Assembly: GCF_964204645.1 (NCBI RefSeq)
Contig: NC_134028.1
Location: 25,952,153 to 26,016,152 of the forward strand
Length of the DNA: 64,000 nt
Reading direction: 5' to 3'
DNA from: Tubulanus polymorphus
Taxonomy: Eukaryota; Nemertea; Palaeonemertea; Tubulaniformes; Tubulanidae
The position numbers and the translations under genes were made by a program. Positions 31,994 through 63,704 of this stretch are shown piece by piece. The stretch's first letter is position 1; each line of letters starts with the position of its first letter. The notes under the pieces were generated by a model. The model had not been told where the DNA came from. It saw only the letters and a program-made list of their open reading frames with translations, and did no database searches.

Positions 31994-32686
31994 ATGACTG
32001 ACGAACCGTTCTGGAGTCCGGAAGCCGTCGTTTACGACCCGCTGAAAATCGGAAGCATCGACGGCACCGATGAATACCCGCACGATCACGGTATCGTACG
32101 AGCGATGAACGCGACGTATAAACCTCCGCGACACCTCGATACCGACCCGAAACGCACCGTGTTCGTATCGCGGCTCAGTTCGAACACCGACGAAAAACGC
32201 CTCGCGGAAATATTCGATAAATACGGACGAATCGTGAATTGCGTCGTTATTCGAGATGCGATTACCGGTTTCTCGAAACGATACGCGTTCGTCGAATTCG
32301 AGAACGTGAATCAAGCGTTCCGAGCTCGCGAAGACGCGAATCGTACAGTCGTCGATTCCGCAGAGATATTCGTCGATATGGAACGCGAACGTACGTTACC
32401 CGGTTGGGTTCCGCGGAGACTCGGCGGCGGTTTCGGAGGACGCAAAGAGTCCGGGCAACTTCGGTTCGGTTGCTCGGAACGACCGTTTCGGAAGCCGTTA
32501 GATTTGAATACTGCGTCCGGTAGAAATTATAAGCAGGAATCGCGTAGAGAAGCATCGTACGCGGAAAATAATTACAACAATAGACGCGATAATTACCATA
32601 ACAACGATCAAGGGGTAAAGCGTTACCACGACGACAGAAGCAGAACTAGCGGCTCAAGAAAATATTCAAGTAACAAAAGATACTGA
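31994..32686 (+). CDS. SNRNP35: U11/U12 snRNP 35 kDa protein
   Basis: A single coding exon of 230 codons. The ATG was chosen because it directly follows a splice acceptor (TTTCAG) and gives MTDEPFWSPE..., then YDPLKIGSIDGTDEYPHD, matching the family N-terminus; an in-frame upstream ATG at 31904 would add 30 unrelated residues. The RRM has RNP2 VFVSRL and RNP1 KRYAFVEF at about residues 55-130. It is followed by ERERTLPGWVPRRLGGGFGG and KESGQLRFG, which are specific to this protein, and an Arg/Tyr/Asn-rich tail. The protein is the U1-70K counterpart of the minor spliceosome, part of the U11/U12 di-snRNP that recognises U12-type donors. AATAAA occurs near 32799. Confidence 0.95.
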   Translation: MTDEPFWSPEAVVYDPLKIGSIDGTDEYPHDHGIVRAMNATYKPPRHLDTDPKRTVFVSRLSSNTDEKRLAEIFDKYGRIVNCVVIRDAITGFSKRYAFVEFENVNQAFRAREDANRTVVDSAEIFVDMERERTLPGWVPRRLGGGFGGRKESGQLRFGCSERPFRKPLDLNTASGRNYKQESRREASYAENNYNNRRDNYHNNDQGVKRYHDDRSRTSGSRKYSSNKRY

Positions 32687-33162: not shown

Positions 33163-36100
33163 TTAGGAGTGGTTTACTGTATTGGGTCTAACTCCTAAAC
33201 CCTTCCTCACTAGACTACTATTAATTGAAGAGATGGGAGTCTTTAAGAAACTGCTGTGTGAAGGCAAGTATCTCGTTAAAACTGGACTAGCAGAACTAGA
33301 GATTTTCTCTCGTAAACTCGTCTCCCATTGAAAGTATCCGCAGCCGCCGCTGCGTCCTGTCGGACACGCGTAGAATATTCTACCGACGTTCGGACCGGGA
33401 GTTTGTACGACTTTACGCTTCGTACGACGGCCGCATTTACAAAGAGGTGGAGTTACGTTAAACGAGTTACCAATCACGTTCGTCATATTAGATAAAGGCG
33501 TTCGAACCGAACTCGCAGGAGTTTTAAACGAACTCACAGGAGTTTTAAACGAACTCGCAGGAGTTTTAAATGAACTCGCAGGAGTTTTAAATGAACTCAT
33601 GCGAGTTTTGATATTTGATAGATTATTGCTTGAACTACAACACGATTCCGCAATATGAGATTGATTTGAAGGAGTTTTAAATGAACTCATTTGAGTTTTA
33701 ATGTTCGATTGATGATTGCTCGAATTACTGCATGTTCCCGTGAGTTGATTTCGATTTGAAGGAGTTTCAAGCGAACTTACATGAGTTCTAATATTCTCCG
33801 TCAAACAAACGTTATTCTTATTTCGTTGCATATCAGAAATATTCGAGACTCTTTCCACTATTTTCTCATTATCACTATCTACGAACACTTTAAACGCTGA
33901 TTGTTTCGATGAACTACTAACGCCTCCTTTTATCGATTTCAAAGGTGAATATATACGACTGCGTTTCGCAGATAGTTCTAATTTTTTTGCAGTCGGAGAA
34001 CGTTCGGAACGTTTATTGTAAGATTTCATTTTACTCATTTCCGGAGTCATTTTAAGCGGACTTTGAACTGGAATTCTAGAAGTCGCGTTGACCTGCTTAT
34101 TGGACGCTGCTGGCGATTTCGTTGAATTCTCGACAACTTTTCCAGAATTATTACGATCGACAAATAGATTCTCGTTCGATCTAGTAGGTGTCGGCTGATT
34201 CAGTATTTTCACTGGAACTGGAATCTTCGAAGGGCTGTTGTATGATTTTAGTACTGAGTTCAGAGATGAGCTGTGTGGCAGGGGTTGTGGTTTGAAACTC
34301 GCAATCTAGAATATGCAAAATAACGTCGAGTTAATCGTAAAGTAGGATAAGAACAGGGGCGGATCCAGGCTCAAAGAAAGGGGGAAATTTAGGGCCTTTT
34401 TCTGAACTTTGCCACCATTTCGTTGCTCGATACAATGATATTTTTGAACCTCTTCAACGGTAAGACAGCTAAATTGCCAGGACAAACTTTTGATATTTTT
34501 TCCAATTGTTCAAGCTTGATTTTGATTTTAATTACGAAAATAATTTTTGTCGTTTACAAAATCGGTTTATGCTTCGTCAGAATAGAAAGGTTCGACGTCA
34601 CCTTAAAGTTTGCAAGTATCATTGTCATTATCTATTCAGGAAGTCAAGGTTCAGTTCCACAGTGCTGTCTCCAATCTTAAATTAATTAAACCTAATCTGT
34701 TATCAGGGTCCGATCTAAGCACTTGTCCGATTGCCCGGGACAAGTATATTCCCATAAGGGCAAGTAGGTTATCATTATCACCTGTCCCCCGTGCTAGTGC
34801 AATTTTATGTCACAAAGCTTTTTCCCCACTCGATACAACGGATGATAGTGCCACCAATCGGACTGCCTGTGTAGCATAGCAAGTAGCTTTTGGAGGGGCA
34901 AGTGGAATTTCAGATATGCTGCCCCCCCCGGGCAAGTGGCTTTCATTCTTTAGATCGGACCCTGTAGTAAGTCGGAACTGGGTCACGATGTTTTCACCTA
35001 TATTGTGATACGTACTGGTTGTAACCAGTTGATTCATCATCTTACCCTCGCATCAAGAGATTTAGTTATGACCATCACGCAACCATCTTTGATCATTCTC
35101 ATCACTAGATTCGCAGTGTTTATCGCATCGTCGATACCTGTAAATATAAACACGTTATTACACGATCGAGCTGAATGACTACCGTCTGCTGGCACCACAC
35201 ACCGACCTGAATGTTCTCTTCCTTCAAAATCTAAGCCTAAATCTTGCATCGCACCCTTTAAACCATTCGGTCGTCTTTGGTAGAATTGCTGAAAATATGA
35301 AACTTGCATTAAAAATATGCAGATTACGTAGTACCAGTCAGCAGCCTGGAAGAAGGTCTGACCCTCAAACATAAAGATGTTCAACGCTTCACTGATTCCC
35401 GATGTTTTCGAGGATAGTAGTCACCCTGTCACACACTTCTGATCGATATCTGAAGGAGTTTGTTCCGGCCAGAAGGGAGTGGTTCAGGGCTGCAGATTGT
35501 AATGAAAACTCAGACATGGTCAACTTATTCTCCACCAGGTTAACACGACTCCTCGATAAAAATTTTAAAATAATTTGAAATAATTTTTTGTCTTGCTAAT
35601 AAATTGCTCAAAACAATTTTGCCAGTCCCAGTTTGTAAGACAACTGTTTACCGGTGTAGCGGTATACTTGTATTTACCCTGTACGTCGCTCTTAAATCAA
35701 TCCAACAGTTCAGCGATACCGGTTTAGACAGCTGCTTTCTTTTACATTCATATAACAGACAAACGCCGAGATCCCAATCTGTAAAATGTCCGTGGAGAAT
35801 CAACTGTTATAATCGTTCAGTGAAGAAGTACGGTCACACTCATTTAAACAGTCAACTCTGATCTATTCCAGATTTATGGCTAAAATTGATACCTCATTTC
35901 AGCAGTTGAGAGAGGCGTATGGACCCTGTAAATGTACTGAAATATTCACCTGACCATGTGACAAATGTACAAGACATTCGACCCTCAATTCGATCTCGAT
36001 TAAAGACGATATTCTTCGATTTCGAGATTTTTGTCAACCAGTTCGAAAACTTTGATAAACACGACCGTATCGGGATTCCATTTTCAACTTTTTCCTGAAA

Positions 36101-37019
36101 AAGAAAATGGGTAACAGGTTCCCACTGGTTCCCACAGGTTCCCACAACTTGAAAGTGGACGGATTGGTCACTGTATGTACCAGGTCATGTTAGTGGGTAT
36201 TGGGTACTGGTACTGTAAGTCAGTGGTACTAATTACAGTTTGTGGGTACCTGCGTGATTCCGGTCAGATTCGTACAAAATTCACTAAGAATCGGAGATTC
36301 CTCAGGCATCACGTATTGCTGAAATCTATCTTCGATTTCACCGGTCGCTGTGTTCATCAAAACCGCAGGAAATTCAACTAAAATTGATTTGAAAAAAGAA
36401 AAAGTTTTTAATTATTTTAGTACGAAGAGGTGCTGCAAGGGAATCACACGATACGATAGATAATTACTGATTTCCTGAGGTCGTTTTGTGGTCCTATCAT
36501 CCCAACATGTTGATTCAAAATCTAACACAATCACAAAATCAAATTTCTGACCTAAAAATGAAGTTCATTTTGAGTAGGTAATCAATGACCAATGTTACAA
36601 CGAGGTTTTATGCTGAATTGCATTGTCAATGAAGAATTGAAATGGGAACCGATTGATTACAAATTTCAAGTCTATCATCTCTACTTTTGAAAATGACAGT
36701 TCTATCCTTCAGGCTTCTTGCAGGCTAGGCTATGATAAATACCTCCATTTCTATAATTTTGTCTTGAACTATTTTTTGATCTTCGTTTCACCAAACCAAG
36801 TTCTCTAAAATATCGAAGATTTAAATCGGATGAATTCAATTGAAGAAGAAAAAAAGTGACACTGGACTGACTGAGTAAATAATGATTCACCACACGATCG
36901 ATCGATTGGGATGCCGCATCGATTGTCTTTCAACGGCCGATACTGATTCAACGATATACCATCATTTCTCTTTTTTAGAACTTTACTTACTGCGCTAACT
37001 GTTTCGCAGACTTGCCCAT
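33163..37019 (-). CDS. ERI2: ERI1 exoribonuclease 2, DEDDh exonuclease with GRF zinc finger
   Basis: Nine exons on the minus strand: 37019-36991, 36804-36743, 36551-36468, 36377-36250, 36094-35950, 35778-35678, 35288-35207, 35137-35046 and 34305-33163, giving 621 codons plus stop. The start MGKSAKQLAQELGLVKRRSK matches the family N-terminus. The exonuclease domain (about residues 35-250) has the catalytic DFEST of Exo I, then SEFCTNLTGITQ, WSDWDLGVCL (Exo II Asp) and GREHSGIDDAINTANL (Exo III His/Asp). The last exon encodes a Ser-rich linker with heptad repeats SSFKTPA, then a GRF-type zinc finger CKCGRRTKRK...FYACPTGRSGGCGYFQW. ERI2 is a 3'-5' exonuclease related to histone-mRNA and small-RNA trimming enzymes. 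One intron (35138-35206) is stop-free and in frame. Confidence 0.92.
33490..33800 (-). repeat. In-frame 21-nt (SSFKTPA) repeats in ERI2
   Basis: Within the last ERI2 exon a 21-nt unit, encoding seven residues of the type (A/M/V)SSFKTP, is repeated. Four units are directly tandem at about 33505-33600 and further copies (SSLETP, SSFKTP) are spread up to 33800. The tandem ones are near-identical at DNA level, so they expanded recently. Each unit offers a T-P site. Confidence 0.75.
34704..34964. repeat. 261-bp hAT-like MITE in an ERI2 intron
   Basis: The element starts CAGGGTCCGATCTAAG and ends CTTTAGATCGGACCCTG, inverted ends of about 16 bp with one indel. CAGGG ends suggest the hAT superfamily, but I cannot see a clean 8-bp target duplication. 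Inside are GGGCAAGT repeats in both directions (near 34730, 34763, 34898 and 34930). It lies in the ERI2 intron 34306-35045. Confidence 0.65.
35138..35206 (-). other. 69-nt stop-free, in-frame intron in ERI2
   Basis: The donor is TCAG|GTCGGT and the acceptor TTTACAG|GTATCG. Removing it restores GREHSGIDDAIN, the conserved Exo III motif. Its length is a multiple of three and it contains no stop, so retention would insert 23 residues right beside the catalytic His/Asp region. Confidence 0.7.
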
Positions 37020-37633: not shown

Positions 37634-40600
37634 TTATAAACCAGGTGAAGTTCTGTACACAAGGAATTCTGTGGGCGACTTTGATTCGATGAGGCTCGTA
37701 TCTCCAAGAAAATCATCATCCTGTGTGATAATAAATAAATGACAATAACAACAGGGTTCATACTCAACATAGGCAAATCATGCATCTTGATAAAACTCAG
37801 ATTAATCATGTTCATATGTGGCATACGACATTGAGTTTGAGAAATTATCGTTACATTTTAATTGAGATAAAGAAGAAATTCATCATTTATATTGTACACG
37901 TACTCTGAACTAGCCAACCTGGCCGATTATTGTGGAATTTCGCCACCACCACCACCGCTCTTAAACTAATAATGTTTGTGTTCATACCTCACCAGCGCTG
38001 TCGTTGTCGTCGTCTTCTATTGGATTTCCGGAATATTCTCTATACAACGGTTCAATCGCGTGTTTTGACCTGTTTAACGAAATTCAAATCAAATATCATT
38101 TTGAGGAAATCAAAATCTTTATGATCACAATTCACACGGTTTAAACGTACCGAGGTAAAATGTAAGGATCGAATGGAAAGAACGATTCTAGTTGATTCGT
38201 GCGACTGTTTATGATATATGTTGTATAGAGTTTTGTCACTGGGAAAGCTGTAGGTTTGTTATGTTCAATGATTGTATCACAAAATGCAAGTTGGTGCTGC
38301 CTGCAATAAAACAATATATTACATTTTATTAGATTGGAGACAAAATCTACAACTGAAAAGCCTTAAAGTTTGTAGCCTGGACCCCTCAAACAATCTACTG
38401 TCTGTGGCTCGCACTCAACTATCTGACCACAAGAGAGGGTGCAGGTTACAGACACAAGATTGTCCGACAATGTACTCTATCAAAGAAATTTGGGGTTAGA
38501 TATTTTGCCAAGAAATGCATCTGATTTCATCCAGACTTCACCTCTCTAAAGGTGATACCTCAAACGCCTTGAAGGAGAGCACTCAGGGTACAGGCAAAAG
38601 ATTGATAGCAGCATACAAGCTTTCATCTTAGTTTTGGAATCAATGGTTTTGTCATAGTTTACCTGGTCACAGCTGCAAACGTTTTCACGATAACTGGCAG
38701 ACATGTTTTCAATGGATTTAACCAACACATAACGATGGATGGAAAATTCAAATTTTGAGCGATTTGATGTCCTGAAATACACGTACAAAACATAGAAGTC
38801 ATTATTGGGCTAAAAATTGATACCTCGTTCCTCCTTTCTGCTAAGTTTAAAAGATGACCCGGCCTGCCACCCTGTGTATTACTTGTTTTATCATCGCGAT
38901 CAGTTTTACCATAACACACCTTAAGCTATAGAAATGATTTTATTATAAGTTTTATTGCGATTTACAAAATCACCAAGCCGATTAGGAGAAACAAGGTATC
39001 ATTTTTGTTAAGCTTTGAATGGTCATTTCTAATGATCCCAAAAGGAGTTCAACAAATATACCATATCTCCTCACCTTTATTCGACTGTAAAATTTCCTTG
39101 TGTCTGAATATGAATATGTAGAATAACGCCTGGCAGACGGAGTAGAACGTCCCGTGACGAGGGACGTCGTCACATTCCGAATAACTGGATTGTTGAATAT
39201 AAGAATGAATCCATTGCGACATGTGTTCCATAGTAACTACAGCCGTACTGATCGGCACAAATAGACCTCGAGATATCAAACCACACATATACGCTACTGC
39301 AGCCTGACGATATATCGGTTGAGTGTTCGGATTCTTTACTTTCTTCCATAGATAATCGATAAACCCGTCTGCTAATGGCTACAAATCAATAATACTGTAG
39401 AATTAAGATTCAAGAATAAGGTTGAATCAGTGAACTGATGAATATAGAGTTTTTACCTGTTTGAAACTGCAAATATAGAATAGTAAATATTGCACGTGAC
39501 TCGACGAATGAGTCACTAAAATAACATCTTCAAAAACACCCAATAATTCCTTATACAACTTCTTCGTTTCTTCCCAGTTCAACTGACCTAAACAAGATAA
39601 CAAACCGCATGGTTATTTCTTGTTGAATGTGTCCAAGTATCAGCCATATGATAAAAGTATCAGCAATAGTAAGTTGCCTGAGGTATCAGTGATAGGATAC
39701 ATGTATCAATCAGTGATAGTAGCTTACCTGATATGATACACGTATCAGTGATATTGTGCAGTAGTAATTCCATTGCCACATCTAGTTTATGAGCTTCAAC
39801 ATGACTGAGTTCAGTGTCTCGCTGATTCGAAGCTAATTCCGATTCTTCCTTTACCTTCACATCGTCCGTACGGAATATATCTGACTCCTCATTATCGACA
39901 TTCATATCACCATCATCTTCCTCCTCATTTTCATCTAAAGCATCTTGTACTGCCCGTCGCGGAGATTGACTCTACAAACAAAATAATCAGACACAGATAT
40001 TCATCTAAGATAGCACAAAAATAATACACAAACTATATGGCATTTTCATTGATAATTGTTCTTAGAAGAATGTTGGCATTAAGTCAGCACTGGCATTAAA
40101 AAGGACTTTAACTGTATGTAAGAACAGAAAAACTGTTTCTTTTTTAGGATAATATGACTTTATTTGACAAAGATAAATAATAGCAAAGGTTTGCTAAGGC
40201 ACGATGTACATAATAGCAACACCAGTAGTTGATATCCTACTGCACACGGTGGATTTATTACAGGGGGTTTTCTTGAGAGTACAGTTCCCCATCAAGCGGG
40301 TTGCGATATGAATAAAGTACACCTATAACCATTAAAATCCCTTACATCTAATTCCATTAATTTTCCGATGATTAATACCAGTATTTTACGTCTGCATTGT
40401 GGTAAATATCGCGCGATATGAAGCAGATTTTTGATGTAACATTCGTGTTGATAAGCGGGTCGCGTGAGAAGTGGATAGCTGTCGACTAATATCGGCACTA
40501 ATACAGTTGGTGTCCTGTCAAATAAATCTTCAGTTAATAAAACCTGTTTGGCAGCACTTCAGAAAGCATTCATTAAATACACTTGTAGTTAATACGAATC

Positions 40601-41893
40601 TGTTTATAACACACTCAATAAAAGTGTCCTTAACCCTTTCAGTGCGTCTACACCGCAGTGCGGTGTACAAATCAGTGATGGACTTTGCTAGTACACCGCA
40701 CTGCAGTGTATTGATTTAATTAGTAATTACTAATTATCTCTATTGAAAGATGGCAGCACCTGTCAAACATAGTGGAATATTAGTAACTAACGATACACTG
40801 CACCGCGGTGTAGACGCACTATAGTGGTATTCCCTTTATTCAACACACCAGGGTGGAATTTTTTAGAATTTTCAAATTATCTTCAGCACTATAGGGTATT
40901 AATTAGCCAGCACTGAAAGGGTTAAGGGATTGATATATACTTACAAAGGAACAATTTTGATTATAGCCTGTAACACCGAGTGTATATTGATAAATGCTGT
41001 ACCATGTATAGTTCTCATCGAGTCTGGTGATACCCCCGCCGATGCACCAACTTTCTTGGCGTTTCCTGGGTGAAAAATATACAAAAATGTTATTCCGTGC
41101 GATCGTACAACAAAAACTCAAAACGAACAAATTCTTCGAACAGCTTTATTACCGGGTTTAAACTGATTGACAAATGATTTGAGACAAGCTTTCAGGAAAT
41201 ATGTATGAGCCGAGACTAGATTCACTATAAATGTTTTATATTCGATGACGACCAACGTATCTCTTCTTAACCAATCCAATTTCTATTGATTATGAAATAA
41301 AACAAATTAAAATCTGGCAGATCGATGAACTCTGCATCTGAAATGTTCACATATTTACAACTAGCTTCTTTTTCACACTTTTTTACAATAAAAAAACAGG
41401 ATTTTTCACAATTGTTTAAATAATTTTCCTGCATTTCACATGTCAAGATGTATCAAGATATAGACCATAGCAATTATACAACACATTCTCGACGACAGAT
41501 CGTCCATGAATTGGTAAAACTAAAAACTGTAGTCAGTTACTGACTGCTGATGGAGAACCTCCAGGTTTACGCTGGTCCAGATAACTGAGATCGATGACCA
41601 GGTTATTACTTACAAGAATATAACCGATTAAGCATTCCCAATGTTTATCTAAAGTTGTGATGCCGTTCTTCAGTAATTGCATTACTGAAATCATACTTGA
41701 ATCCTGTAATGAATGAATAACAAATTCTTCATTCAATAATTATAAAAAGTATGTTATCTTATAATCTTAATTGAACTAATTAAATGGAATTGAAAATGTA
41801 GATATAAAATACTGGTAAGATACTGACGCTTAATAGTGGATCGTTAAGTTTTTCCATGATGGCGTTATAACCGATAGAGTCCGGCGACTCAAA
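37634..41893 (-). CDS. RRN3: RRN3 / TIF-IA, tandem copy A (N-terminus not found)
   Basis: Twelve exons on the minus strand, all in phase: 41893-41828, 41703-41614, 41282-41153, 41065-40945, 40514-40346, 39971-39728, 39587-39457, 39378-39075, 38771-38663, 38300-38151, 38069-37988 and 37720-37634 (stop TAA), 560 codons. Blocks match RRN3: QHECYIKNLLHIARYLPQCR, SHVQYLLFYICSFKQ, HGTFYSVCQALFYIFIFRHK, LNPLKTCLPVIVKTFAAVT, AFCDTIIEHN and LESFFPFDPYILPRSKHAIE. RRN3 bridges RNA polymerase I to the rDNA promoter factor SL1 and is a growth-control point. The first residues are missing: the most upstream exon I can place corresponds to residues 22-37 of copy B. Translation might begin at its internal Met (MEKLNDP) or in an unseen upstream exon. 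Copy B at 50887-55904 is a tandem paralogue in the same orientation. Confidence 0.88.
38810..39010. repeat. MITE copy in an RRN3-A intron (copy 2 of the 1855 family)
   Basis: Starts TTGATACCTCGTTCCTCC and ends GGAGAAACAAGGTATCA, imperfect inverted ends of about 17 bp. It shares internal blocks with 1855-2025, including CCGATTAGGAGAAACAAG. The equivalent intron of RRN3 copy B (52139-52406) lacks it, so it inserted after the duplication or was lost from B. Confidence 0.6.
40634..40921. repeat. 288-bp piggyBac-type MITE with TTAA target duplication
   Basis: The element starts CCCTTTCAGTGC and ends GCACTGAAAGGG, perfect inverted ends, and is flanked by TTAA on both sides (40630-40633, 40922-40925), the target site of piggyBac transposases. 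Inside, GCGTCTACACCGC near 40643 pairs with GCGGTGTAGACGC near 40804, and TGCGGTGTA / TACACCGCA blocks are repeated, so nested hairpins can form. No transposase. It lies in an RRN3 copy A intron. Confidence 0.85.
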
Positions 41894-43700
41894 CTGAAAA
41901 TAAAGATCGGCACTTCCGAACTCAAACATAAAAAAACAGCAAGCCATAAGACAAATTGCGAGCCCTGGGCAGCGGCTGGTTCCCTAGGGTAGTTTTTTAT
42001 TCTTTCAAAAAGCATAACCGAATAGAGCAAAAATATCAAATGTAACCATAAACACTCAGGCAGTCGGATCACGAAATGCTGGGTCTCAAATCAAAGCTCC
42101 ATGATCTCTGAATAGCAGACTTATAATGATAGATTCAGGGCTGGCAGAAGCAAGTTGCCATTGGCCCGGCTCATATCTGACAGCACGCAGTGGCGGATCC
42201 AGATCCAGGGGTCAAATCTGAGTACCTACTGAGTAATATTGTCTCCCGAGAAGCTAACCGAAGAAATTAGAAACTTTAGGTGCTCTCAGACCTCAGATGC
42301 TATATCGGCAATTTTAAAACAGGAATCACATATTATGTGCCTATGGTGCACCGATTCACTAGCCCGGTTAGGTATCGCATGTACAACAGAACAAGTATCG
42401 GAGAGACAAACATGATACGTTTCTGAATTAAGTCACTGCATGCATGCAGGCACTCGCAGTAGGCTGGATCCGCTATTAGCTTGAGGTGTGAGTCGTGGGA
42501 AAAATTTGCACCTACTTATAACTTAGTACTTTTCAAGATTCCCGCCAGGAGAAATTCGCTGCCGGGCTTTTGACTGATCAGACCAGTTTTCGGGTATTAT
42601 GATTCAGATCGATTGAGTCACTTTGTTTATGAATGTTACAGACCATAATGTGAAGAATATAACTCACGGTTTGCGACTCCATCATTGGGGATAGGCGGTA
42701 GGGCCCAATTGGGGACAGATTTCCACACTTAAAACTTGTAAAGACAGCTTTCCAATATATAGGGTTGTCCCTGAAGCAATCAAATACTATCGGCTGATGC
42801 TGCCATCTAGTGCTTTGAAATAAGCCGTTCGTAGACTGGTTGCCTGTCCAATTCTGCGCCACCTTCTGGTGCAGAATGGACAGGCGACCAGTCTACAACT
42901 GCCAGGGCCAAATTCGGTTTTCGTATCTAGTCGACTAGTGGTCGGAACTAATAGGCCTAACCGAAGCTGCTTAATTTTCGAACTATTTCCGGAATATAGT
43001 TCCGACTAACGGACATTCGGTTTCGTTTAATTCGACCGATAACCGAAGGTGGCCATGGGTTCGTGAAAATGATTTACGGCGGGCCGGCCGTGAAAAGCAG
43101 TTAATTTTATAGCAGGGCAGTGAAATGGGGGTGTTACTAAAAACTTTGCGCTACTAAAACGAAGGCCTATGCACTTCGAGGTATTAAAAATATGCATGAC
43201 TATAAAGAAATCCGAAGACCTACTCGGAATCATCACTTGGGGCGCTTTGTACCACCTCTGCCGGAAACGTAAATTTATCAGTTTTCTCGGGTTCATATAA
43301 GTCTACGTGTTTAGTAGTCCTTCGTTTTAGTAACACTTGTTGCTTCACTAAACGAATGACAAATTTCAAAATCAATCATATTTATTCTCACAACAATTAT
43401 ACACAATGCCAGGTTTGTGCTCGAAACGTTAGCTCCTCAAACACGTGGACTTTTAAAAACTAGTCCAACCACCATAGGCGTATAAACTATAAACGAGAGT
43501 TTATACGTCCATGGTCCAACCATAGACTCTAAAACAGAAACGTCTATGGCCCACAACCATGGACACTTTTAGCCTATTTTCTCAAATTTCAATAGTAATT
43601 TCATTTCTTTAACTATGTATGAAATTGTACTAACAAAGTTACATGTAAGGTATTTCGAAGTCTTTATCTATGATACATTTCCACTACAGCTGATTTATAC
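41894..43700. other. Spacer upstream of RRN3 copy A
   Basis: I searched this part on the minus strand for the missing first exon of RRN3 copy A and found none convincing. It contains a CAGTGGCGGATCCAG end at 42186 typical of hAT-like repeats, the hairpin at 42839-42898 and the inverted copy of a CCDC57 3'UTR block at 43440-43490. Confidence 0.45.
42839..42898. repeat. Hairpin repeat, about 28-bp stem
   Basis: AGACTGGTTGCCTGTCCAAT...GCGCCACC is followed, after a three-base gap, by TGGTGCAGAATGGACAGG...CGACCAGTCT, its near reverse complement. A single arm recurs at 50077-50108 (GGTGGCGCAGAATTGGACAG...), matching at about 30 of 31 bases, and looser at 9343-9385 and 6410. It looks like a short snap-back element or terminal region of a mobile element. 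Confidence 0.65.
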
Positions 43701-43729
43701 AATTTGCACCAATTTCAATAAATCGGGAT

Positions 43730-44055
43730 AATGGATATCTATATTACAAGGTTAACTTTTTTTCTGCCTAATTTATTACATCAAGATTTTGGATATCTAT
43801 ATTACAAGATTCACTTTTTTTCTGCCTAACTTAATACATCATATTACAAGGTTAACTTTTTTCTGGCTTATTTATTACATCGAAATTTTGGATATCTATA
43901 TTACAAGGTTAACTTCTTTTCTGGCTTATTAATTACATTAAGATTTTGGATATCTATATAACAAGGTTAACCTTTTTTCTGCCTAATTTATTACATCACG
44001 ATTTTGGATATCTATATTACAAGGTTAACTTTCTTTTCTGCCTATTTCAATACAT
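43730..44055. repeat. Tandem repeat, about 57-bp unit, about six copies
   Basis: The unit TTTTGGATATCTATATTACA AGGTTAACTTTTTTCTGCCTAATTTATTACATCA (given in two parts) recurs with small changes and one shortened copy. No coding sense in any frame. Confidence 0.8.
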
Positions 44056-44499
44056 TCTTTCTTGGGTGCTAAACACCCAGTGGCCAGTAGGCTTTTATTC
44101 AAACCCAGGCCCATCATATAGTGCGAACCTGCTAGTATTATTTGGCCGATATACATTTTTATTGTCAGCTAAACTATATGCGTATTAGTGAATTAACTTC
44201 ATCATCAATTAATAAACTTTAGAGATGTTTTCTACTCATAGATGGCGACATCTGTACCCAGTGAATGGTATTCAATTCATTTCAGTAATTCTAAATATTG
44301 CCCCTAATATATAACTGAAGAGTGTGCTGCCAGCATTGAGCACACTGGTCCTGTAAACAACATGGTTCTACAGATTTAAGAAACCGTCAATCATTCCCAC
44401 ACCTTGACAAATCCAGAATTCCGTAAAGCCTTAAGATTCAATAAATCCTTCGCACAAGAACCAGAGTTACACTTCCTGTATTCTTTTGATATCAACCAA

Positions 44500-45900
44500 T
44501 ATTGAATTATAATTACCTTATTCGAAGATGCTGAATTAATCTTTATCGTAGATACCTAATCAATCAATTAATGTCCTCTATGATTTAAATTGTCTCGGAC
44601 AATATCTTATATGGGGCTTGACATTTCCACATGAGAATAATTTCAGATCCGGTACAAATTTGGATTGATCACTATTTCAAACTGCTAATTTTTCATCAGA
44701 GCTTTTGATATCTAGTTTGACGAACCCAGAATTCCCCAAAACCTAACTGATCCAATAGATCCCACATACATGTGGCCCAGTTAGACGCAGATGACATTGC
44801 ACGATACAGTCGTCTCATCCACTGCACTATTTTGAATAAGTTTCACTTATATTCATTATATTGAATTGATTTTAATTGAATTCTAGGTATCTAAGCGAAC
44901 CATTAATTAGCAATCATACTAGCTATATTTTAATTGTCAGTTGAAAAATATATATATGGAGCCTGGAAATCTACATGAGTAGAATTTCAGATGTGGTGAA
45001 TTCATCACTATTTGAATTCATCAGAAATTAAGATAAAAACACATTTAAGTGGTAAATTAGAAATTCTTTTATAGCCAAATTGCTATATTATCTTTATTTC
45101 CCTAAAGTACACTGTGTATAAGGACTGAAAGACCTTGTAATGACTGGACCTCCCCGGTGCGGTGCAAGACATGATGCTAGAAAATAGTTTGAAGGAGAGG
45201 GGTTAGTAAAAGAGAGCTATTAGCAAGAGGAATAAGACCTAAGTTTAGGATATCCTGTCAGAATAAGGCTCTCAATCTGACATACACAGTGAAATTGAAA
45301 TATTCCCCCTTCCAAATTCAGGATTGTATTTGTGCACATACAGATTTGTTTTATTTCCCTTCGATCGGAAGTAAATCTGCGTGAAATGATTTTGGCAATA
45401 AGTATCAAAACTAATACAGCTGTATGAAGACACAATAGGTTCACTAGATACAGATAAATAAATGTGATCAGATACACATGTATCAGCTACATTTTAAATG
45501 TCCATGGACCTGAATTAAAAAATAATATTACATAACATATTGAATTTACCTTAATCGTAGATATCTAAGTAATACGTTAATGAGTAATTCATCTTAGATT
45601 CTAATTGTCAGTTAAACAATATCTATTACGCGTCACCTGACACACAGTATGGTTTTAGATATTATTTGAATCAGTTAGGCTTTGGTAAATTTTGTCAATA
45701 TTGAAGGGCATGACCAGTCGCCGTAAGCACGGTAGTTGGAGATGTAAATACTGATCAGTTGATGAGACCTATTCAGATGTGCTCATACATATATCAGCTA
45801 TATTTAAATTTTCAGTTTAACGACATTTATATTATGGACCTGTATTACATACCGTATAAATAGTTTTTGATCATAGAAATATTGAATTCATCTACGATTC
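44500..45900. repeat. Degenerate long tandem repeat
   Basis: Blocks such as CGTAGATATCTAAG, AGCTATATTTTAATTGTCAG, TCAGTT(G/T)AA(A/C)AATAT and TATGGA(G)CCTG recur in the same order near 44540, 44890, 45550 and 45790. Units are a few hundred bp and diverged, so borders are approximate. Confidence 0.5.
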
Positions 45901-46389
45901 GTTTCAAATTTTTCAAATTGATTACCTTCGAAAATATCAATGCCATCAAATTTGTACATCTACAATTCAGCAAATAGTTAATATTTGTACATCAACACTG
46001 GTCTTACGTTATGTTCTATGTTTCCTAACAATGTATATCTACACGGACAAATAGCCATAGTTGACTATGTTTAACTATGGTAAGTTGGAAGATTAAACTC
46101 ACAATTCATGTTGAAACTATATCTCAGTTTAGGAGTTAACTCAACCAGGGAAGTGTGACTCAACAGACTTACGAGTCCAAACTAGGCACTCAACACGACC
46201 ATTTATCCCTAGTGACAAACCTAACTTGTCTTATCTATCGACCAAGGATCGAAGACCAAAATCGTGCATTAATGAAGCTTAGCTTTTATTAGACTCACAT
46301 TGCATAAACATTATCAAATAGTTTCCTCGAAAACACTATATTATCCATCAGACTGGTTTGAAAAAGGTGATAAGAAAAAAAATCAATAC

Positions 46390-46620
46390 TTTACTACAGA
46401 AGTCCGCTATTGTCTTCGCCGCTCCTGGATTTCAGTGTTTATAACATGCACTATTATCTATGCTGCTCCTAATAAGATACACTATTGTCTTTGCTGCTTT
46501 TAAAACAGTGTTTATCGTGAATCAGTGTTTATGAGATAATCCATTAGCTTTGTCACTTGAATCAGTGTTTATAAGATTCACTATTGTCTCTGCTGCTCCT
46601 GATATTTAATCTTTTGTAGA
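46390..46620. repeat. Short-unit tandem repeat (CAGTGTTTAT...CTATTGTCT)
   Basis: The blocks ATCAGTGTTTATAAGAT, CACTATTGTCTTTGCTGCT and CTCCTGAT recur about four to five times in a 45-60 bp rhythm with internal deletions. Confidence 0.55.
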
Positions 46621-47019
46621 AATAAACCACCGATTGTAGAAGAATCCATCATTGAGTGATTAATCCGTTACTGGTTCCTCAACTTTTCATCTGGGCTTCT
46701 GCAGTTTTCATCAGCAAATGGGTCGATCAGTATTCATCTACTTGTGAGTGTCTTCTTCAGGCCAATTTTTCCGAGATGTAGTTTGGCTGAAACAAAGTGA
46801 AGAAAGCAAAACATTTCAGACAGATTTATCATAATTTACGTGTCATTTCAAATTACAAGCCACCCTGGTTTCACAAAGTAAAATTCATTGATGTCAATTG
46901 CTGATTTAAACCCCAATAATCAATTGCAGTAGTAGGACTAGTTCATCACTGTTTAAGACTAGTGAAGATAAAAGTTCAGCCATGTGGACCGGTAAATAGA
47001 TTGCGATGATAGTCAATTA

Positions 47020-47760
47020 TTAAATAATATTCATATGAGGACTGAAATTTCTATATACAGATAATTTCATGTATATCAACTTACCTTTAAAGATTGCTGG
47101 GTTCAGTTCTGGTCTTTTCTGTGCACCGTTCCAGTTTGTAGATTTTGGACGAGTAGTTGATCTCAAGCTGGGCTTTTTCTTATAGTTGAAATTCAGCTGC
47201 AATGATTTAAAGAAGATATCCTGTAATGACAAAATATTTCATTCAGAATTTATCATAATAATTTCCATAAAAAATCCGACTTACATTTCAAGTAAGGTGG
47301 GTTCAGTATCGGTTAGAACAATTGGTTGATGCAATTGGTTGATGATTTGATTCAAGCTTGGATTGTTCAGTGGGCTAAGCTTATCTGTAGATATTTGATG
47401 AGTCGTTGATTTAAAGCTGGGCAGTTTCATATAGATAGGATTTAGCTGAAATGAGCAAACAAAGATATCCTGTAATGACAAAATATTTCATTTAGAATTT
47501 ATCGACATAATTCCATATATATCAAGTTACCTTTTATGATTGCTGGTTTCATAATCGGCGATTATCTTATTAATTGGTTAGTTAGTTGGCCTCATCTGTG
47601 CACTGTTCCAGTTGGTCGATTTTGGACGAGTAGTCGATCTCAAGCTGGGTTTATTCTTATAGTTGAAATTTAGCTGCAATGATTAAAAGAAGATATCCTG
47701 TAATGACAAAATATTTCATTTAGAATTTATCATAATAATTTCCATAAATAATATACCTAG
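47020..47760. repeat. Tandem repeat, about 240-bp unit, three copies
   Basis: The block AAGATATCCTGTAATGACAA AATATTTCATT(C/T)AGAATTTATCATAAT occurs at about 47210, 47460 and 47690. Between them, TCTCAAGCTGGG(C/T)TT, ATAGTTGAAATT(C/T)AGCTGC and GATTTTGGACGAGTAGT are shared. A partial unit (ACTTACATTTCAAG...GCTGGGTTCA) recurs near 48155-48185. Confidence 0.75.
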
Positions 47761-48374
47761 AATAGCCTACTCGGTTATATTCGTAACACCGAACAAATTA
47801 TAAGCGAACATACAATTCCTAGAAGAGTTTCCATCCGATTGAACTTTTATATATTTCAATTCCAAGTATGCAAATTCACATGTATGAAAACGTGCCATTA
47901 CTTAGTGCTAAAAAGCAGGGTTTTTACGTGTTTTTCAAGAATAAGTCCCCTAAAAATAACTTGATCACTATGAAATTTTTGTGGGCTCGAGAATTCATTA
48001 TAAGCCAAACCATGACACCAAAAATCAACACTATTGGTTCAACAGCCAATGTTTATGCCTCGTTGACACACCGGTACTCTATTCATTTTCAATGAAAACT
48101 GCTTCTCCAGGCCATTTGCATAGGCAAACCTACAGGCAAACCGCCAAAAATCAACTTACATTTCAAGTTTGCTGGGTTCAGTTTATCAAATATCAAATTA
48201 CCTTTTATGATGGCTGGGTTCATTATCGGAGGATCTCCTTAGTTGGTTGGTTGAGTTTCATCCAAATTGGCCCCTTCTGTGCACTGTTCTGATGAGCTCT
48301 CGTTTGACTTTTTGAGTTGGTGTCCCTTACGATCGTGACACACCTGCCAGGAGCGAAACAGGCAGGAATCGAAG

Positions 48375-48665
48375 TACAGATATAGTTGTGTGATCGTCCG
48401 TCGTTTTTACATCATTTTTTTCGACAATTTTACAATATTTGGTCTTTTTTTCATATAAGTAGTCCGAAAGTTTACAAGGTTAATAATTTTGTCTAATTTA
48501 TACATTTCTTTGGTCTTTTTGTTCATGTAGTCCGAAAGTTTACAAGGTTGAAGATAATTTCTAATATCTTTTTCGAAATCAAAGTACAGATATAGTTGCG
48601 TGATCGTCAGTCGATTTTACATCATTTTTTTCGGAATCGAAGTACTTCTTTGTCTTCTTGGGTTT
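48375..48665. repeat. Direct repeats around TAGTCCGAAAGTTTACAAGG
   Basis: AGTCCGAAAGTTTACAAGGTT occurs at about 48461 and 48529, preceded by TTTGGTCTTTTT. GTACAGATATAGTTG(T/C)GTGATCGTC(C/A)GTCG occurs near 48376 and 48583. These are two unequal copies of one unit of about 200 bp. Confidence 0.6.
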
Positions 48666-48879
48666 CGTCGAAGCTGAAATTGAGTAAAAGAAAAACATTT
48701 TGTAGTCACACATTTCTACATCATTAATCCTAATTTATATGTGAATCAACTTAACTTTCAAGATTGCGGAGTTCACTATTCTTTTTTCGGCATCTTCTGT
48801 AGTCGCTTTCTACCATCTTCTTCTTCAACTTCTTGGGAGTCCTGAAATGAAAAAAAGAGAAGAGCGATGAAAACCTGGT

Positions 48880-49090
48880 ACGGAACAAAACAATGTTCGA
48901 AAGCTTTTCAGCTCTCCGTCGCCGGTCACATGCCGAGAACACCAGACAATGAGCCAGCCAGGAATATACTGCCCTCTACACGCCCTCACACAGAACGCGA
49001 AAACCAGAATGACAACGCCTCACATTCCCCATCTAACCGCAAGGTGTACTGGGCGACGTCAGTAACTGACAAACCTGTAAGATTGCACGA
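48880..49090 (+). mobile_element. Possible reverse-transcriptase C-terminal remnant, plus copy
   Basis: A frame reads FQLSVAGHMPRTPDNEPAR, resembling the AGH-x-x-R-x-P/S-D segment near the C-terminus of many non-LTR reverse transcriptases. It aligns with the minus-strand copy at 49480-49660 (RQLSFAGHVSRMSDKESVRK) at protein and DNA level. Only about 200 bp survive. The family is not determined. Confidence 0.4.
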
Positions 49091-49129
49091 AACACAAATA
49101 GCGCAGTACAACCAGCTTGACCGGGTTGA

Positions 49130-49420
49130 GATTCAGGATCTCAACTAGCACTCAAAAGCGTGACAAGAGACTTCATCCACTGACCGAGGTTGTCACAAGG
49201 ACACAATGAAACTAGCACTCACAAGCCGACAAGAGACTTCATCCACTGACCGGGGTTGTCACAAGGACACAATGAAAACTAGCACTCAAACTAGAAATCA
49301 AAGAGCGTGACAGTAGAATCATCCCTCAGTCGACTCAGAATACCAGAAACAAAGAGCGTGACAGTAGAATCATCCCTCATCCGGGCGGTCACAAGGACAC
49401 AATGAATGCTAGTAGCGTGA
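49130..49420. repeat. Short direct repeats between the two remnants
   Basis: ACAAGAGACTTCATCCACTG ACCG(A/G)GGTTGTCACAAGGACACAATGAAA occurs twice at about 49159 and 49225. AACAAAGAGCGTGACAGTAG AATCATCCCTCA occurs twice near 49310 and 49350. CACAAGGACACAATGAA occurs a third time near 49390. Confidence 0.7.
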
Positions 49421-49479
49421 CAATCCAGTATAACCACTCCATTTGTATCCCGCGCAATCCCGCAGATATGCCCGTCATT

Positions 49480-49680
49480 GACATCACTCAGCACACTTTG
49501 TAGATAGGTGGGGGCAATGAGGCCTCGTCATCCTATTTTTCTTGTTCCATATAAGAGCGTGTAAAGGGCAGAATTTCCTGACCGACTCTTTGTCTGACAT
49601 CCTCGACACGTGACCGGCGAAGGAGAGCTGACGCTTTCGGACATTAGTTTTGTTCCAGCAAACGTTAAAATTCGACAGAG
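49480..49680 (-). mobile_element. Possible reverse-transcriptase C-terminal remnant, minus copy
   Basis: Reads RKRQLSFAGHVSRMSDKES on the minus strand. It is an inverted counterpart of 48880-49090; shared DNA includes TCAGCTCTCC-TCGCCGGTCAC and CTGCCCT-TACACGC. The upstream frame (49700-49900) has a hydrophobic Leu-rich stretch without a family I know. Confidence 0.4.
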
Positions 49681-49689
49681 AAATTGGCC

Positions 49690-50886
49690 CTGAAAAATAA
49701 AACGGGTTAATTGCTGAAAAATAGAACGGATTAATAAACACGGAACAGTACAGGACAGCACAGAGACGAACAGTAACACATAAAACATAAAGACGTCGTT
49801 CTTCAGGAAGCAGGAACAGGAGCAGGAGCGCAGCGAAGATCGCCAGGAGGAGAATCCACGGTAGCATGTTCACAGTGTGAGTAAGCTGAGGTGAATGGCC
49901 TATGCTTGTGGTGTACACCGCGGTCAGCCGGTGACGTATTCAATAGCGCGTATAAATGATATCAACAACTCTGAATAGCCGCAATTGTGTCCCTATTGTT
50001 GAATGGTTTTACATTAAGAAAGGTTCCACCGACGGGTTGAATACGCACCAGTAGAGCTGAACAACTGCGAATGCAGGTGGCGCAGAATTGGACAGGCGAC
50101 CAGTCTAAAGGTAGAGACCGGCAACCAGTCTAAGCTGTTCGGAGATATTAAAGGGTGACTCCGGGTGGCGGATGTAATTCGGGGGAATCCTATCAAAATC
50201 CGCATTAAGATACCAGATCCTCCTGATGCTCAGATCCTCCTGATGCTCAAACCCTCGACCCTCAAAAATCCACGTCAACTCTTTGACTTTATTACAGCTT
50301 TATTTACAAGAAATAACAATTAATATTCATATTACATAATCAGTTGATAATGTACCACAGGTATTACATCGAGTTAAGGGAAATTAATAATCGATCTGAT
50401 TCACAGCTAGAAGTATACACAACTATTCACCATTTGCACCTGTTACAATTTAATTGTAACAGGTGCAAAATTAAAAAATTATCTCTAAAACATTTGGGAA
50501 ACAAAAGTTAATTCAAACTGATTACCAGATTTCGCTCAAGTTAGATTTTTGGTTCCCACAGTTATACAAATTCTAAATTCTCGTATTCTTAAGTTTTTCA
50601 TGGGTGATTTTCAGAAATGTTCCCAACCTGCGTACTAGAGAGACGTCAACATTTAACTGACTGGTAGATAAAGGTGAAAATTTCAGCAATTTCAGTTTTT
50701 TTTTCAGAAAAGAAACTTGCCCTTGCTAACCGCTGCTAACTGAAGTGTGAAAAGAATTTTCCAGATTTTTCCCAGATCGGACAAAATTTCATCAAACTTT
50801 TATAAAAAAAGAATCATTCCCAGATCATTGCTGATTTCCCGTTACCATGGGAACCATGTGTCTTTCTATTGCGAGCGAATTCTATT
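49690..50886. other. Spacer before RRN3 copy B 3' end
   Basis: Contains the single hairpin arm at 50077-50125. Near 50440-50470 is the perfect palindrome pair TTTGCACCTGTTACAATT / AATTGTAACAGGTGCAAA. TTTATT at about 50286 and 50303 can be minus-strand poly(A) signals for RRN3 copy B. No gene seen. Confidence 0.5.
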
Positions 50887-53800
50887 TTATGTATGTTTAA
50901 ATCCTGGCGATGAACCATACAGAAGTAATTGGGTCGGTGATTTTGCCATTGATACCTCCACTGAGTGATCCGGCAACTGCTCCTTCAAGAACTCATCTTC
51001 ATCCTAAATAATAGTAACGATGTTGATATTCTGAAAACAGATCTTCCAAAATTATCAAAACAAAGAATTGACGAGCATTGCGTTGTGTTCATACCTCACC
51101 AGTGCTGTCGTTGTCGTCGTCTTCTATCGGATTTCCGGAATATTCTCTATACAACGGTTCAATCGCGTGTTTCGACCTGTTTAACGAAATTCAAATCAAA
51201 TATCATTTTGAGGAAATTGAAGAACTAAATCACAATCAGGTACCAGCAACGTTACTGTGGCAAGTGAGGATTCCACCAGGTGTCGCTAGTTGTTACTCAG
51301 TTTCCGCACTTCAATTCCTTCTACATTTCAATCAAATTTGAGTAATTTATTCTCATAATGCCATACACTCAGAAAGTTAATCTATCTAATCGATGACTTG
51401 TTTGAAAATTTTTGGATTTGGAAGCCTAGAAATCGGATTCAAATCTCAAATGAATTTCACTACGAATAACCCAGTGTTTTGGGGTGCCATTTGATGAGTG
51501 TCCATTCACGTAATTCAAACATACCGGGGTAAGATGTACGGATCGAATGGGAAGAACGAATCCAGTGAATTCGTGTGACACAGTTGACTGTATGAATGAC
51601 TCCGATCTAAAGTAGTCACTGGGATGAATGCTCGGTTGTTATGTTCTATTATTGTATCACAGAAAGCTATTTGATGTTGCCTGCAAAAATACAAATATTT
51701 AATACGGGTCATATTAGTAACAGTATAATAGTAAAACCTGCCACAACCAACACTTTTCCTCGGAACCAAAATTTCATGAGAGCCTCTAGCAGAGATTTTA
51801 CTGTAGGCACTGAATTATCAAACATGAAGACTGGTAGTACTTTGTAGAGGTACACACACTTGATTGCATGTAAAATATTGAGCTTTCCCTGTACCAGGAT
51901 ATCAAAAACCATTGACCAAAAATGAAGTTAATCCACAAACATCACATTAGTTGACACCAGATTAACGTGCGACTTCTTAACAACACTTTTTTATGAATCA
52001 GTTATTTTTGGAATTTTCACAACACTTACCGAGTAACGGACGAAAACGTTTTCACTATAACCGGCAGACAGATTTTCAAAGGATTCAATCGGCACGTTAC
52101 GATCGCTTGAAGATTCAAATTCAAACTGAATTTATAACCTGAAGAATGCATTCAATAGAAATTCATTACAATAAGGTTTTACAATTTTACCAAATAAAGC
52201 AGATACAGGACCTAGTCGCGCAGTCATGACTGAATTAGACTGGGTTTGAGTTTAGGATGAGCTCTAGAGCCAAGACAGTCTTAGACTGACTTGACTGTGC
52301 AAATGGCTCCTGAAGATAAAATCATATCGAGGAAACTGATTATCAGCCTTCGAAGATATCTTCTACAGAGGACAGTGATATTCAGCCCCCAAGGATAACT
52401 CCTCACCTTTTTGGCTTTGTAAGATTTCTTTGTGTCTGAATATGAATATGTAGAATAACGCTTGACAGACAGAATAGAACGTCCTGTGACGAGTGACATC
52501 AACGACTACCGAATAACTGGATTGTTGAATATAAGAATGAATCCATTGCGACATGTGTTCCATAGTAACTACAGCCGTACTGATCGGCACAAATAGACCT
52601 CGAGATATCAAACCACACATATACGCTACTGCAGCCTGACGATATATCGGTTGAGTGTTCGGATTCTTTACTTTCTTCCATAGATAATCAATAAACCCGT
52701 CTGCTAATGGCTACAAATCAATAATACTGTAGAATTAAGATTCAAGATTGAATCAGCAAACATTTTAGAGCTGGTTTTATAGACTGGTTTTAACTTAAAC
52801 CTGGGGGTTAACTCTAAAATGAATTATTGCGTTAGCTAAAGGGTTAAAGATAGCACCAGGCGTTGATTAATATAGGGTTTTTACCTGTTTGAAACTGCAA
52901 ATATAGAATAGTAAATATTGCACGTGACTCGACGAATGAGTCGGTAAAATAACATCCTCAAAAACACCCAGTAATTCCTTATACAACTTCTTTGTTTCTT
53001 CCCAGTTCAACTGACCTAAACAAGAGAATGATTCCGTTAAGAAACTGGATATTGAGAGTTCATTCGCTGGCAATTAGTTTTGAAGGTATTTAATTATAAA
53101 ATGTCTAATGTTAAGTATTTGAAGTTCATTTTCAATGTCTAATGTTAAGTATTTGAAGTTCATTTTCAATGTCTAATGTTAAGGGAAGTGCGGAACACCT
53201 GTGGAGTGAGGTGGATGATCCTAGATATTGAAAGAATGGTGATAACACAGGGTTCGTACATTCCAGGGCAAGTGGAATTCCAGGTGTTAAACATATCAAA
53301 TGTCCGAAAGATTGCAACAACAGCAAGCTGCTGGCTAAGAGAGTACCGGGTCTAGGCAGCAATAAAACAGACAATACCTGATACGAAACACGTATTATGA
53401 ATATATTGCAATAGAATCTCCATGAGTATATCTAATTTATTAGCCTCCGAGTGCGATAACTGATCGGTCGATTTCTCCTGCACTTCCGCCTTCTCTGCAG
53501 ATAGCGATTCATCCTAGAATACAAAAAAATAAATTAAACGAGATTGAAGAATACCTATACCTTGTTACACCAAGAACAGAATACAAACCATCACGAAAAT
53601 CTCGTCGACATTCATCTCTTCATCTTCATTATCATCATCTTCAGTTTCGTCGTCTATAGCATCTAAAATCGCTTGTCTCGGTGACCGCGTCTAGAAATGA
53701 ATTAATAGCAATCGGTCGAATGAAAAATCCTTCGGATGATCATCAGGGTTTATACAGATCGTTCATTCCTGGATATACCAGTAGGGTCTCGACATATCGT

Positions 53801-55904
53801 AATGCTTAAATTCAACTGTCTAGAAATAGTAAATTTGGATACCAAAAGCACTTATACGATAAGAACTTAACTAATTTTTTCAAAAGTAAGCACCTATAAG
53901 AACTTTGAAGACTCGCTATGAACCCTGTTAAGTTTATCTAGAGTTGACCGGATATCAAGTAAAGGACGGGTTGACCGAATCAGTTTAACTTACATCTAGT
54001 TCAAGCAGTTTTCCGACGATCAACGCGAGAATCTGGCGTCTGTCGTTGGTTAGATATTGCGGCATCAGTAACAAGTTTTTCAAGTAGCATTCGTGGTGAT
54101 AACCCGAACGTGTTATATACGGGTAATAATCGATGAGTAATGGCATTAGAATCTTCGGCGCCCTGAAATCAAAAACCACTATTCATCTTGAATTCTTCTT
54201 CAGATTTTAATTCTTGTGGCAATAGAGGATTCTGCTGGTGCAAACAAGGAATCATCAGGTTCACTAATGCAACTATATTTTACTTACATGGGAACTATTT
54301 TGACGATTGAACGAAGAATGGCATGAATATTGAGGAAAATTAAACCATCTTTATTTCTTTGCTCATCGATTACGTCGTTTACATCAGTGTCATCACCTGC
54401 GATAAACAATAACTGCGTCAAACAAAACTCCACCTATTTTCACAGTCGTGAGTTAAGATTTTACAATCGAATCTTGTGTGGAACTGAGTCATAATGTTCA
54501 GGATCCAGTTACATTTTGGTTAATGAAGATTCGACTCTAAGAAACAAAATTATTTGGACAGGAAGTATGCAAATTCAACTTGGAACTAACAGAGACGGAT
54601 TTACAGGGTGGTCTTGGGAGTTTGGATCCTGCTGTTCTTGTCAAGAAAGCGATCGCAAATTTGACCAATGGAATTTGCGTATATCTCCAAATATATATTA
54701 ACATCAAGGGTGGGACTAAGCTAGTGGCTTTTAACAAGACTGCTTCATCTGAGAAATGCCTTTTCCTTTTTTCTAGGCCCAGTTCCTGTTAATATACCGT
54801 GATATTTCCTCCAGAAATGAATCATCGAAGTAAGCTTTGTCAATTAAGAATTATTACGTTTTCCGATTAAATTCGTGAAACAGGGCCCCAGTCTAGAGTT
54901 GTGGAATTGTATCCAGCTAGCTGCGAACTACAAGAGCAAACTGTCAATGATAGTTAACTCACTCGGTCTAAAACGTGTGATGAACGATTTCAAACATGAT
55001 TTCAGGTAGAAAGTATTCGCCGATATCAGATTCAATATAAACGTCTGATATTCGATGACAACTCGCGGTTCTCTATTCGGCCAATCTAATTTCTGGAATA
55101 AAAGACCAAAATAAAATCATTTTAAACCTCGATATATACAGAGATTAGTAAAACGCTGTAATCATCAGTACTCTTACCAGCACTGTTCCTATGAGGTGTT
55201 CGAATTTTTTGTCTAAGTTCGTCACAAAATCGCTGAGACCTCTCAACACTTTCACAATAAAGACACTCTGAAAATTGAAATTTTACATCAGCATATCTCA
55301 ATACGACCATTCACTGATATTGATACTAGGCATTTAAACCTTGAAGATTTAGTCAATAAAACTACGGCCCTACCGGTAGACAGAATGTAAACAGCAAGTA
55401 AGATAAAGGAAAGGCCCTAAACTAAATCGACATCATTGAAGGGTAAAATTCTAGCATAGCCTAGCAGTTTAAAAGAAACACAGAGTGGCCTGGTATTTGA
55501 ACTTTGGGGGTTAATAGTAGCTTAGCTCATGGAGTAGTGCAAGTACTATATGCTGGGCCTATAGTACGTCCTGGGATATTAGATGATCTTATTTTACCAT
55601 AAAACTTCAAATACAATCCCTTGCCCTGTCATTTACTGTTTTCATCGTAATTATGCATAATACAGGATACTGATAGTGTAGTCTCATACCTAGCTAACGT
55701 TCCCCAAACAACCGGTTGTAGGGAACCCGTAACAACGACTGGTATTCAGACTATTGATAGTAGTCATGACTGAACGAGCGATGATAAATTTACCTTCACA
55801 TTGGGATCAGAGAGATTGCTGATCAATACATTATATGGTTTCGATGCTGAGCTGCTGCCGTTTTTGTAATTCTCTAATATTTCACTGATCTCTATCGGCT
55901 CCAT
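50887..55904 (-). CDS. RRN3: RRN3 / TIF-IA, tandem copy B (complete)
   Basis: Thirteen exons on the minus strand: 55904-55794, 55267-55178, 55092-54963, 54396-54288, 54162-53994, 53690-53595, 53513-53378, 53015-52885, 52710-52407, 52138-52030, 51680-51525, 51176-51095 and 51003-50887 (stop TAA), 579 codons, all in phase (one edge is uncertain by a base). The start MEPIEISEILENYKNG follows an acceptor, so a 5' untranslated exon exists. RRN3 blocks: HHECYLKNLLLMPQYLTNDR, SHVQYLLFYICSFKQ, FYSVCQALFYIFIFRHK, LNPLKICLPVIVKTFSSVT, SFFPFDPYILPR. An acidic loop (DDETEDDDNEDEEMN) and an acidic C-terminal patch (EDDDNDSTGEDEDEFL) are typical. Copy A has one exon (39971-39728) where B has two. B is divergent from POLR3A with 374 bp between starts. 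Function: recruits Pol I to rDNA. Confidence 0.93.
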
Positions 55905-56278
55905 GATGCGCTGTAACAACAATAATACAATAACTGGACGGATTAGTAACAGACTAAGCATCGTAACGCGATTAAAAACCATATTTTAATCAATTTCTCA
56001 TCAGTGCAATTTGTCGAACTTTCGCCAGATTATTCAAATAGATATGTAATTAAAAGTGTGATGGTAAAACATTAAATTAACTGACCGATTCGTTCTAAAT
56101 CTCTCTAAATGCTCGACAAATAAAAACGTGCTCAATGGGAGCCGCCATCTTGAATCCAATAGACGGCGCTTTCGTCGAATTGTAAATTTGTCCATGTGAA
56201 GCAATGATCTATAGACCCGATGTAAAACCTCGTAAAAGTGACTGTTTTGTGCGTTGAAACAGTCGTGACAGCTGCAGC
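55905..56278. promoter_or_regulatory. Divergent RRN3-B / POLR3A promoter region
   Basis: 374 bp lie between the two start codons. The stretch 56120-56175 (GGGAGCCGCCATCTTGAATC near the middle) contains GCCATCTTG, a YY1-like site typical of TATA-less housekeeping promoters. No TATA box is seen. An RRN3-B 5'UTR exon must also lie here. One region would thus serve a Pol I factor and the Pol III catalytic subunit. Confidence 0.5.

Positions 56279-63704
<7,426 letters not shown>

Follow-up and report, generated by a model that had tools for sequence, protein, structure and literature searches.

It is at RRN3 that signals of growth and stress are brought to bear on rRNA synthesis, and the window considered here (the whole 64,000-nucleotide stretch of Tubulanus polymorphus DNA that was analysed) raises the question of whether an animal may keep two such factors at work side by side. 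A single RRN3 copy has been described in vertebrates other than human, in fly, in worm and in two yeasts, and the extra human TIF-IA copies are 4-25 million years old, incomplete and without detected protein (PMC2231382). A sequence-only reading of the window had placed a pair of intact RRN3-like genes here in the same orientation, and exon models with GT-AG introns and no internal stop bear this out: the two copies, A and B, form a tandem pair on the minus strand, 13-14 kb apart, their introns are all GT-AG, and in each the joined exons are open throughout with no broken frame. The coding parts are as follows.

41929-37634, minus strand: coding span of RRN3 copy A, 12 exons (GT-AG model, open frame, Pfam match)
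41929 or 41893-41828, 41703-41614, 41282-41153, 41065-40945, 40514-40346, 39971-39728, minus strand: copy A exons 1-6
39587-39457, 39378-39075, 38771-38663, 38300-38151, 38069-37988, 37720-37634, minus strand: copy A exons 7-12
55904-50887, minus strand: coding span of RRN3 copy B, 13 exons (GT-AG model, open frame, Pfam match)
55904-55794, 55267-55178, 55092-54963, 54396-54288, 54162-53994, 53690-53589, 53513-53378, minus strand: copy B exons 1-7
53015-52885, 52710-52407, 52138-52030, 51680-51525, 51176-51095, 51003-50887, minus strand: copy B exons 8-13
53588-53514, minus strand: extra phase-0 intron of copy B, not in copy A, whose exon 39971-39728 reads through

Save for that one additional intron, the intron positions and phases of A and B correspond one to one. 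By its exon model copy B comprises 581 amino acids and not the 579 codons first counted, its final exon being corrected to end at 50887. Copy A has 560 amino acids from its first acceptor-bounded exon, the N-terminus having at first been left out, and 572 with the in-frame ATG at 41929 as start; translated from there it reads MFEFGSADLYFQFESPDSIGYN, alignable with MEPIEISEILENYKNG...YN of copy B. We note that the start codon of copy A is ambiguous: ATG 41929 is aligned with the start of B, has a poor Kozak context and falls within an apparent polypyrimidine tract before the acceptor, while ATG 41857 has good context, but with the loss of 24 N-terminal residues. Motif scans of 41.9-47 kb gave no further upstream exon for the N-terminus of A, and an upstream N-terminal exon for copy B was likewise looked for and not found. 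An in-frame MAAPIEH leader near 56150 was considered for copy B and not adopted, its donor being only weak.

Both products match the Pfam model for the Pol I-specific transcription initiation factor RRN3/TIF-IA family (PF05327, cut-off 25 bits) almost equally, A with 404.0 bits over model positions 27-555 of 558 and B with 403.5 bits over 14-555. Human RRN3 in structure 7OBA (7oba_O) is matched along its length, at 392 bits (E 3e-116) by A and 416 bits (E 2e-123) by B, and the yeast Rrn3 structures 3tj1 and 5g5l give weaker matches (E 6e-19 to 6e-25). On these matches both genes are members of the known RRN3/TIF-IA family. As compared to human RRN3/TIF-IA (7OBA; PMC8660638), the homology is full-length and the C-terminal acidic patch and SP motifs are recognisable; the differences are that there are two coding genes here and one in human, and that no counterpart of the N-terminal extension of the human protein was found here. 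A search of the whole 267.8-Mb assembly gave RRN3 model matches at loci A and B only, the most conserved DNA tract of the pair occurs in it exactly twice, and neither a third copy nor a relic was found across it.

The two copies have different neighbours, an ERI2-like gene and POLR3A, and the second of these stands head-to-head with copy B.

55905-56278: divergent intergenic region of 374 bp between the start codons of RRN3 copy B and POLR3A
56141-56152: YY1-like GCCGCCATCTTG, within that intergenic region
56279-56323, plus strand: first coding exon of POLR3A, ATG at 56279, head-to-head with copy B

A downstream exon of POLR3A has a Pfam RNA_pol_Rpb1_1 match, and the 374-bp region might act as a common promoter serving both Pol I and Pol III output. 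Copy A is without a POLR3A-linked promoter, and the 5' regions of the two copies are non-homologous. A use of the copies in different tissues or stages, as first suggested, has its single hint in these unlike 5' regions and in the short divergent region that B has in common with POLR3A. The spacer was also searched for ERI2 or POLR3A relics, as from a wider duplication, and none was convincing.

Several further features of this neighborhood may be recorded. At 33163-36564 on the minus strand lie the ERI2-like pieces: one is an open frame in which Pfam recognises a GRF zinc finger and whose 21-bp and 90-bp tandem repeats encode repeated SFKTP motifs, and another was judged exonuclease-like by eye alone. 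An open frame with an RRM lies at 31886-32686 on the plus strand and reads like SNRNP35 (U11/U12 35K), a minor-spliceosome protein. The POLR3A region contains a 60-bp tandem repeat of 9.5 copies (59599-60168), and between the two RRN3 genes lie inverted segments (48882-49099 and 49656-49441) that are about 74% identical and are probably transposon remnants. Elsewhere in the assembly, among the 39 of 9786 candidates that were scored, one 5.8S rRNA match was reported (L010; G000:C8:6271837-6271975; 139 bases, 91.5 bits); the main rDNA array may be absent from the assembly or unscored. COX1 was looked for and not found, and marker families (molluscan haemocyanin, annelid linker, arthropod cuticle), scanned without a positive control, gave no match.

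How old is the pair? Outside exons 8, 9 and 12 (numbered as in copy B) the copies share 51.5% of their amino acids; dN there is 0.41 and dS, at 1.92, is saturated (Nei-Gojobori), as compared to dS 0.16 and 95% amino-acid identity within those three exons. When A, B and human RRN3 are aligned three ways and the converted residues are set aside, A and B are 53% identical, A and human 40%, and B and human 41%. Because A and B are only this similar and dS is saturated, against 40-41% identity to human, the duplication is by these measures old. The acidic loop and C-terminal tail had been thought to differ most between the copies; they are not the only such parts, for amino-acid identity is lowest in exons 1, 2 and 4 (32-38%), followed by exons 13 and 7 (43-44%) and the acidic exon 6 (52%). 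The relative rate against human gave 36 A-only and 30 B-only departures (p=0.54), and on the sequence comparison neither copy evolves faster and neither decays. We consider it likely that an old duplication gave two selected, working Pol I factors, that patches of them were later converted, and that the two are probably used under different conditions.

Both copies might instead be functional but redundant, with conversion and selection for more product (dosage) keeping the core alike, a scenario with which the equal rates, equal Pfam scores and homogenised core exons would agree. However, likeness has not been preserved over the whole pair, given that beyond the patches half of the residues are different and dS has reached saturation, and the 5' regions of A and B are unrelated; we regard redundancy as unlikely, if worth keeping in mind, and favor two working factors with separate uses.

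A further alternative is that one copy, most likely A, was recently retired or is untranscribed with its frame still open. The ambiguous start of A would suit this, as would its lack of a POLR3A-linked promoter and the loss of one conserved proline (common to human and yeast; in A, L-P-T has become L-V-T), but A equals B in relative rate and Pfam score and all of its splice sites are intact. When neutral drift of the A coding sequence was simulated, a mean of 7 stops had arisen at 0.1 substitutions per site, and none of 1000 runs was stop-free. Since even this much neutral change breaks the frame, any loss would need to be very recent, and retirement of A seems improbable to us. The same result carries the main argument for selection on both copies: neutral sequence would gain stops fast, and here both frames are intact despite saturated dS. 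The earlier suggestion of two functional Pol I initiation factors thus finds good, if indirect, support, to which the equal Pfam scores, the equal relative rates and the separate poly(A) signals of the copies add; the pair itself is a real observation, and its members are probably two functional genes.

If the copies diverged so long ago, the near-identity of exons 8, 9 and 12 calls for an explanation of its own. It is confined to three patches of 135-240 bp, 95-99% identical between the copies.

A 39599-39443 and B 53027-52871, minus strand: conversion tract 1, exon 8 and intron edges, 7 mismatches in 157
A 39416-39177 and B 52748-52509, minus strand: conversion tract 2, intron edge and first part of exon 9, 2 mismatches in 240
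A 38110-37976 and B 51217-51083, minus strand: conversion tract 3, exon 12 and intron edges, 3 mismatches in 135

Two of the tracts reach 38-40 bases into introns that are otherwise unalignable between the copies: of the last 40 intronic bases, 38 match before exon 9 and all 40 before exon 12, as compared to 12-22 at the other acceptors. Within exon 9, tract 2 comes to an abrupt end, and beyond that point the silent differences are back. Among codons for identical amino acids, the third position differs in 14 of 158 in exons 8, 9 and 12 and in 94 of 192 elsewhere (Fisher p=5e-17), and the longest run of identical third positions, 55, was reached in none of 20,000 shuffles. Sharply bounded near-identity across silent and intronic sites in a diverged background is what interlocus gene conversion would leave, and on the sequence pattern that is the explanation that fits. 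The tracts show no G+C enrichment of the kind expected from biased conversion (33-39%, with 40% in coding sequence), and the residual divergence differs among them, which suggests separate conversion events.

Strong constraint on DNA or protein might also be proposed for these patches, mostly exonic as they are, but the 38/40 and 40/40 identical intronic bases, the sharp edges and the inclusion of silent sites speak against it, and conservation to human is no higher in the patches than outside them (35% identity against 40%), which argues for conversion and leaves constraint very improbable. Misassembly could in principle yield short identical tracts, but an artefact in which haplotypes or misjoined reads were taken for two genes or for patches is next to negligible given the saturated differences outside the patches, the different neighbors on one contig and the tracts' own differences.

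Turning to control of the two factors, T200 of human RRN3 is a target of JNK2. By binding to RPA43 in the stalk of Pol I, RRN3 renders the enzyme competent for initiation, and human S199 and T200, at the RPA43 contact, can bear inactivating phosphorylation (PMC8660638). In the three-way alignment copy A has L-T-P at S199, T200 and the next residue, and copy B has M-A-P. The expectation that the copies would diverge in regions of regulated phosphorylation therefore holds in part: both copies retain the KSPT...SPG motifs near the C-terminus, neither has the CK2 serines S170/S172, and the clearest regulatory difference is at T200, with Thr-Pro in A and Ala-Pro in B. This is a hint of different stress control. 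One locus for the RPA43 OB domain was found in the assembly, so that both RRN3 products would share one docking partner.

These observations lead us to propose the following history. An ancient tandem duplication of RRN3 would have given two full-length genes, both held under purifying selection, and each product would contact Pol I at its RPA43 stalk and dock region, as human and yeast RRN3 do, and make the polymerase initiation-competent on rDNA. Along most of their length the copies would have drifted until 53% of the protein residues were still identical, and at least three short ectopic conversions would later have overwritten parts of single exons together with some adjacent intron; these events probably fell at different times, the one in exon 9 last. 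Copy B would be expressed from the short divergent region that it shares with POLR3A, and A from upstream sequence of its own that is unrelated; the two would probably be used under different conditions, and only A has the Thr-Pro phosphoswitch where RPA43 is contacted. From the sequence evidence we infer that both proteins function and are differently regulated, with B co-driven with the largest subunit of Pol III and A driven separately, and with stress control that may differ between the two. It is tempting to go further and speculate that control is divided, B without the T200 switch acting as a stress-insensitive initiator co-driven with POLR3A and A, on its own promoter, as the stress-gated one; we hold this to be doubtful. 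If it were true, selection would be keeping the regulatory exons apart while conversion occasionally homogenises the core exons.

The human TIF-IA triplication resembles the present case in that RRN3 was duplicated on one chromosome, but the extra human copies are young and incomplete and here both copies are old and complete (PMC2231382). Mosaic paralogues under gene conversion are known from the red/green opsins (PMC3924837) and from Tigriopus GOT1 (PMC3728101), and in them, as in the RRN3 pair, segments of high and of low divergence are sharply set off from each other; those paralogues, however, have divergent islands in a homogenised background, whereas the RRN3 pair has three small homogenised islands in a saturated one. 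In the open-licence literature we found no report of intact RRN3 duplicates in other animals, which is weak evidence of absence, nor, in what was searched of it, of an RRN3 duplicate combined with gene conversion. The protein family and the conversion process are thus each known, and their combination in RRN3 would be the unreported part.

If our reading is correct, short conversion of exon size can take place between paralogues even after their other silent sites have become saturated, and such patches would mislead dating by whole-gene divergence. An intact RRN3 pair kept for so long would be a natural experiment in the splitting of rRNA control, with T200 as a concrete site.
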